A DNA stretch of 64,000 nt from Mageeibacillus indolicus UPII9-5. GTDB taxonomy: Bacteria; Bacillota; Clostridia; Saccharofermentanales; Fastidiosipilaceae. Positions within the stretch are counted from its first letter, which is position 1, and each line of letters begins with the position of its first letter. A program made the translations under genes and the position numbers. The notes beneath the pieces are model-generated. The model ran no database searches, was not told the origin of the DNA, and saw only the letters and a program-made list of their open reading frames with translations. Below are positions 12,415 to 12,946 of this stretch, piece after piece. The stretch lies in NCBI RefSeq assembly GCF_000025225.2, contig NC_013895.2, positions 682,001 to 746,000 of the forward strand, read 5' to 3'.

Positions 12415-12946
12415 TTACATGATTCTATTTAATAATTTTATTCGCTTCAACTCTATAATTAATTTTCGAGTTTGATCTGCATATTTATCTTTTCTATTAA
12501 AGTAAATATATGTTTTTATTATTACGATTACAATGAAAACAAGTATTAAAACTGCTATTGCTATTCCATATATTTTAACCCCATTTTGAATTAATTTTTT
12601 ATCTATTAAACTACAAGCAATGATTCCTAATATCAAAGAAAACAAATTTGCTCCAAATGATGATATCGAGTTTAATATTGGATATTCTTTATGTACTTCA
12701 TTTATAGGCTCCAATTCCAACTTAAAATACTCAATAACGTTAATATTTTTTTTTTTTTTTTTTTTTTTTTTTTTGATAGCCAACATTATTTTCAATTAAT
12801 ATTTCACATATTTCATTATCTATCATTCTAATCATTTCATTTCGATAGTTTTCTAATTTATCCATATTTTTGAACAGAAAAAATATGGTAATAAGTACTA
12901 ATATGCTCCAATAAATAATCACAGGTATACTGTTCTCAAAAGGCAA
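12415..12946 (-). pseudogene. Membrane protein ORF split by a 29-base poly-T tract
   Basis: Two overlapping minus-strand frames form one protein if the frame is shifted inside the homopolymer. The upstream part (12946 to ~12775) has one membrane span (IIYWSILVLITIFFLF) and an acidic helix ending NNVGYQ. The downstream part (to 12415) has two more spans (LFSLILGIIACSLI; IYGIAIAVLILVFIVIVII) and a basic tail. The frames differ by one base; 28 or 31 T would join them. No good start is visible: the first codon is TTG at 12946 without a ribosome binding site, with an in-frame stop just upstream, so the gene may also be truncated at its 5' end. Function unknown. Either a decayed gene, a phase-variable one, or an assembly error in the tract. 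Confidence 0.6.
12746..12774. repeat. Homopolymer of 29 T
   Basis: An uninterrupted run of 29 T (poly-A on the coding strand of the split membrane protein) encodes poly-lysine in the adjoining frame. No other run of this length exists in the window. Such tracts slip readily in replication and in sequencing. Confidence 0.9.

Follow-up and report, generated by a model that had tools for sequence, protein, structure and literature searches.

The locus considered here raises the question of whether a very long homopolymeric tract, lying where two open reading frames meet, is a switch that turns a membrane protein on and off, a fault in the deposited sequence, or the mark of a gene in decay. The window, i.e., the whole stretch of DNA that was analysed, comprises 64,000 nucleotides of the Mageeibacillus indolicus UPII9-5 genome (NC_013895.2, positions 682,001 to 746,000), and coordinates refer to it unless stated otherwise. 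An earlier note on this DNA had placed a run of 29 T at 12746-12774. Read directly from the window, the T29 tract (A29 on the coding, minus strand) has exactly this position and length in the deposited sequence. The surrounding features are collected in Table 1.

Table 1 Features at and around the T29 tract, in window coordinates.
Feature	Position	Strand	Remarks
Left att-like repeat, GAATGGGAATAACAG	11864..11878	+	3' end (last codons) of guaA
Second half of membrane-protein gene	12415..12795	-	Tract, then 107 codons, two hydrophobic spans
First half of membrane-protein gene	12740..12952	-	One hydrophobic span; stop just past tract
Cro/C1-type HTH regulator (HTH_26), intact	13098..13307	+	Pfam HTH_26, E 2e-12
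ORF6N-domain gene, broken, PADLOC candidate PDC-S05	13324..13998	+	In-frame stops at 13504 and 13678
PADLOC candidate defence gene PDC-S56, intact, 656 aa	14143..16113	+	E 5e-223
Right att-like repeat, GAATGGGAATAATAG	16249..16263	+	14/15 identical to left repeat
MobC mobilisation gene relic	16347..16478	+	Just outside right repeat

The genome, a single contig of 1,809,746 bases, holds 19 A/T runs of at least 9, namely twelve of 9, four of 10, with the remaining three at 14, 17 and 29, T29 being the only one to reach 20. Poly-G/C amounts to one run of 9 and none longer. Within the window, the next longest T run after T29 has 8 bases, no other reaches 9, and run counts drop about threefold per extra base. 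Extrapolated from the window to the genome, this leads to an expectation of 0.07 A/T runs of 14 or more and about 3e-9 of 29 or more, which makes T29 a genuine outlier of the deposited sequence rather than a product of chance; a repeat so far beyond chance length is one property of phase-variable loci. The count of 29 in the deposited sequence is uncertain, and an artefact may affect the length of the tract, not its existence. A29 must slip during replication, and the tract length is therefore best regarded as a distribution.

On the minus strand, the first-half frame is open from 12952 to 12743, with a stop right after the tract, while the second-half frame runs from 12795 to 12418 and ends at the stop codon 12417-12415. 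These coordinates bear out the earlier note in placing the tract exactly at the joint of two frames, and its arithmetic, by which removing one T or adding two rejoins them, is correct. Reading through the joint gives a protein of 178 aa with three hydrophobic spans, one before and two after the tract, in agreement with the three-span membrane protein that had been proposed. Judged from base composition, the stop-free stretch of 59 codons in the first half has a chance of 0.004 and that of 107 codons in the second half a chance of 0.00005. Codon usage, scored against a training set of seven hand-picked low-GC window genes (two of them from the island described below), is clear for the second half, which beats 4987 of 5000 random open sequences (13/5000 scoring as high), and suggestive yet weak for the first, with 265 of 5000 scoring as high. 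Since both halves stay open and the second has coding-like codon usage, the two frames probably represent one former gene that was coding not long ago, and the loss of frame would be recent because no stop has arisen across the 59 and 107 codons. Besides the tract and a poor start, the gene body is free of lesions. On the plus strand, the tail at 12919-13002 is possibly the end of another gene; Pfam gave no match for it.

The start signals of this gene are poor. No ATG lies ahead of the first membrane span in the first half, which opens after a stop, and the candidate starts are the non-ATG codons TTG 12946 and GTG 12922. A proper start upstream of 12946, which the earlier note had suggested looking for in relatives, was not found in this genome. 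Within the second half, an ATG is available at 12786, four codons ahead of the tract. No clear Shine-Dalgarno sequence precedes TTG 12946, GTG 12922 or ATG 12786, the best match being at most 4 bases. Among 30 hand-chosen window genes, 19 have a match of at least 5 bases and 11, guaA included, one of 3-4 bases, and a weak Shine-Dalgarno is therefore alone no proof of a dead gene. From sequence signals only, the tract does not appear to lie in an otherwise expressible gene or its promoter, as the tract of a phase-variable locus would.

It could be speculated that the gene is intact and that only the deposited tract length is wrong, as the frames would join if the tract really had slightly more or fewer bases. 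The tract is the sole apparent lesion of the gene body, and homopolymers are known to be sequenced poorly, as the cited part of PMC2823697 remarks for 454 reads. However, a miscounted tract leaves the missing start and ribosome-binding site unexplained, and one stable length is hardly possible in such a run, which would leave a "true length" with little meaning. We regard this explanation as quite unlikely.

A working phase-variable gene, with slippage in A29 shifting the membrane protein into and out of frame, is better placed, though still unlikely. In this case either the three-span gene would at present be OFF, or the shorter ORF from ATG 12786 would be ON. The length of the tract far beyond chance, its place at codon 5 of an ATG-started two-span ORF, which is the classical place of a translational switch, the openness of both halves and the presence of two other long genome runs upstream of genes are all consistent with such a switch. 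Yet, there is no clear Shine-Dalgarno at any start, no homolog shows conservation, the surrounding island is in decay, and slippage of the transcript on A29 would blur any switch, to judge from the portion of PMC5009743 cited here. Furthermore, poly-A/T tracts make up 7% of the repeats of Campylobacter and poly-T tracts of more than 10 are infrequent, according to the relevant part of PMC6321876. In likeness, the locus shares with the simple-sequence contingency loci of Helicobacter canadensis and Campylobacter an over-long, slippage-prone homopolymer at a frame joint; as described in parts of PMC2823697 and PMC6321876, those are mostly poly-G/C tracts of about 8-16 within genes, with length variation seen in reads. 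The present tract, known from the deposited sequence alone, differs in being A29 and in lacking a clear start signal and conservation.

Relatives of the gene were sought at several levels, with a search reach covering close to moderate relatives, at which a very distant family could be missed. Neither the first nor the second half had a relative in the genome_contigs, viral_contigs, phages or plasmids collections, and an exact 30-base first-half pattern was absent from viral_contigs. Among 97 other genomes, the second half had no credible relative and one spurious match (G081). The read-through protein, compared with 391 genomes of the class (own included), returned its own locus and 20 weak foreign matches that were judged spurious. 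The match in G081 (E 3e-4) falls on the start of an ORF that by inspection appears to encode a P-type ATPase, and that in G369 (E 6e-5) has an alignment that crosses stops and lies opposite other ORFs. The other 19 foreign matches (E 0.0023 to 0.00997) were dropped on score and low-complexity hydrophobic matching; in a re-comparison of 8 of these 19, six aligned at E up to 0.1, all of them short. Sub-threshold Pfam, NCBIfam and PHROG matches were left unused. No mention of the T29 locus was found in the accessible parts of PMC5009743, PMC2823697, PMC9376610, PMC11318147, PMC6321876 and PMC6389960, and it may have been published elsewhere.

The gene lies in an AT-rich island of 4.4 kb that adjoins guaA, with GC down to 27% at 12001-16000. 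The island is flanked by the att-like direct repeats of Table 1, whose common pattern, searched with up to one mismatch, occurs twice in the window where 0.03 occurrences would be expected. The MobC relic shows 83% DNA identity to the MobC gene of an Anaerococcus prevotii plasmid and 50% protein identity over 38 aa to a MobC-like ORF of an element in G008, the genome whose GuaA is closest (71%) among the eight family genomes searched. Downstream of guaA, G008 carries ORFs for a repressor, a tyrosine integrase, MobC and a relaxase (L051; named by inspection, MobC also by sequence matches). At the DNA level, the window and G008 align in two places only, guaA itself and another guaA-like ORF close to the start of the window. 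This second GMP-synthetase-like ORF (719-1711, 330 aa) matches in its C-terminal part only and lies about 9 kb before the full-length guaA.

The features of a guaA-integrated island are thus present in part: a direct repeat at both edges and differing content in a relative were found, and an integrase was not, either among the island ORFs by inspection or by tblastx against the G008 element, where MobC alone matched. The guaA-end repeat was also absent from the 10 kb examined in G008. The 3' end of guaA is a known integration site, where GIsul2 has the core GAGTGGGA (PMC9376610, cited in part). The island resembles the guaA-3'-end islands of the GIsul2 type, as presented in that part of PMC9376610, in its insertion at the last guaA codons, with GAATGGGA in this window and GAGTGGGA in G008 at the place of the core GAGTGGGA. 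It differs in that no integrase remains in the 4.4 kb between the repeats. Because of the guaA-end repeats, the G008 element at the same place and the MobC relic, the island is best read as the putative remains of an integrated mobilisable element like that of G008. Two terminator-like stems, at 12010-12041 inside the left end and at 16290-16321 after the right repeat, are 72% identical and perhaps mark the two element ends.

The other genes of the island are unevenly preserved. The HTH regulator has a strong Shine-Dalgarno sequence (TAAGGAG), and a DNA stretch 75% identical to it is found in G562, ahead of a gene that by inspection is SIR2-like. PDC-S56, predicted by PADLOC like the other candidate and not a tested defence system, has full-length relatives in G372 and G333 among the 391 class genomes (own included), and three further genomes gave short, weak matches. 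Its C-terminus bears an R-x4-H motif, presumably like that of HEPN RNases. The ORF6N gene aligns in three pieces with an intact 313-aa gene of a viral contig (L052), and the window copy begins about 95 residues in; with its N-terminal part gone and two in-frame stops, it is a pseudogene. The earlier note had held that other disabling changes, together with a fixed 29 T in all isolates, would speak against a switch, and the broken ORF6N neighbour goes some way in that direction, but these lesions are in neighbouring DNA and not in the gene body.

Long runs elsewhere provide a comparison. The T17 run of the genome (C1:171780-171796; L012:2281-2297) follows directly on a terminator-like hairpin of -20.4 kcal/mol and is separated by 46 bases from a large downstream ORF whose start resembles a signal peptide. 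The A14 run (C1:1113211-1113224; L013:2712-2725) sits between a promoter-like TTGCTG and TATAAT, just ahead of an ORF that by inspection encodes a DtxR-like regulator, and is a candidate promoter-spacer length switch. Runs of at least 20 occur in 10 of 391 class genomes (own included). Seven of the other nine genomes supplied the nine runs examined here, the runs of G340 and G455, at contig ends, being omitted. None of the nine crosses a large flanking ORF, four are spanned by mechanical ORFs of 61-100 aa (L034-L037), and two (L035 and L042) are near contig ends and may be artefacts. A DNA search of 398 genomes gave matches in 44, many of them to the tract itself, and returned eight loci, of which the six that match the tract were inspected. 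These loci (L056-L061), from other Bacillota, have longest runs of 28 to 88 A/T that are mostly intergenic; one run (L059) falls inside a mechanical ORF of 114 aa, and one of the six loci has a cluster of three runs. As runs of up to 88 occur in other Bacillota, T29 is rare yet not extreme, and its unusual point is its place within former coding DNA.

These comparisons bear on the view that T29 is a regulatory element, a terminator tail or promoter spacer like T17 and A14, between ORFs that are open by accident. The hairpin before T17, the promoter-like hexamers around A14 and the mostly intergenic position of the long runs in other genomes would fit such a role. In contrast, T29 has no hairpin beside it (0.0 kcal/mol), and promoter-like matches at the tract are not above those in shuffles (10 found, 11.1 expected), on which grounds a terminator or promoter role was rejected; in addition, the open frames are unlikely by chance. 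A regulatory tract is the least probable of the explanations considered.

The account we favour, with some reservation, is that an element integrated at guaA is decaying along with one of its cargo genes, in which an A-run has grown neutrally and blurred the frame, and that no selected ON/OFF switch is maintained. On this view, a mobile element that entered the genome at the 3' end of guaA would have carried a small three-span membrane-protein gene as cargo. Replication slippage may then have lengthened a short A-run within that gene to 29 bases and so shifted its two halves out of register; the gene also has no recognisable start. Such growth from a shorter run presumably followed the relaxation of selection, and any culture would hold a mixture of tract lengths among its cells. 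A run of 9 A or T suffices for efficient slippage by bacterial RNA polymerase, as stated in the cited part of PMC5009743, so transcripts of this gene would vary in frame at any tract length in the DNA. Assuming transcription, A29 on the coding strand would be an A/T run of at least 9 within a transcribed gene, as at transcriptional slippage sites, and polymerase slippage on it would blur the frame further and could yield some joined product at any DNA length. Mixed-frame transcripts would in turn reduce the likelihood of a clean ON/OFF switch and render partial rescue likely. In cases of such rescue (dnaX, Shigella mxiE/spa13, Buchnera and Blochmannia, in the cited portion of PMC5009743), genes disrupted in the DNA itself likewise contain an A/T run of at least 9. 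Their products are known or conserved, while the run here is three times longer and the product predicted only.

Decay is favoured because the gene has no recognisable start, because no relatives turned up in the collections searched, and because a neighbouring gene is broken. The recent loss of frame, the poor start signals, the guaA-end repeats, the MobC relic and the G008 element also argue for it, as does the position of 9 of 9 other examined class-genome runs of 20 or more outside large flanking ORFs. On the other side, the gene body is otherwise unharmed, 11 of 30 window genes are equally weak in their Shine-Dalgarno, the regulator and PDC-S56 are intact, so that decay of the island is not general, and the searches yielded no relative from which the ancestral state could be read. 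The three outlier runs (14, 17 and 29) could also mean that unstable tracts are kept under selection. The earlier note had offered a slippage switch or an artefact, with decay of such runs as an added remark. In the deposited sequence the tract is real, and it is necessarily unstable. Decay fits best; a working switch is unsupported, since there is no clear start or ribosome-binding site and no homolog with a normal gene, and the broken neighbour lies in a remnant element.

A further and very improbable reading is that A29 sets the frame of a membrane protein of a mobile defence island in a Clostridia lineage, with every cell and every transcript yielding its own mix of a short two-span form and a long three-span form joined by a lysine stretch. 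A frame-blurring switch would then lie beside anti-phage genes.

If the tract were a true switch, it would imply a phase-variable membrane protein within a defence island. The other two outlier runs of the genome, above all A14 near the DtxR-like gene, may be better switch candidates. Long A/T runs within coding DNA are rare, and as part of a decaying cargo gene T29 would show such a gene losing its frame via slippage alone.
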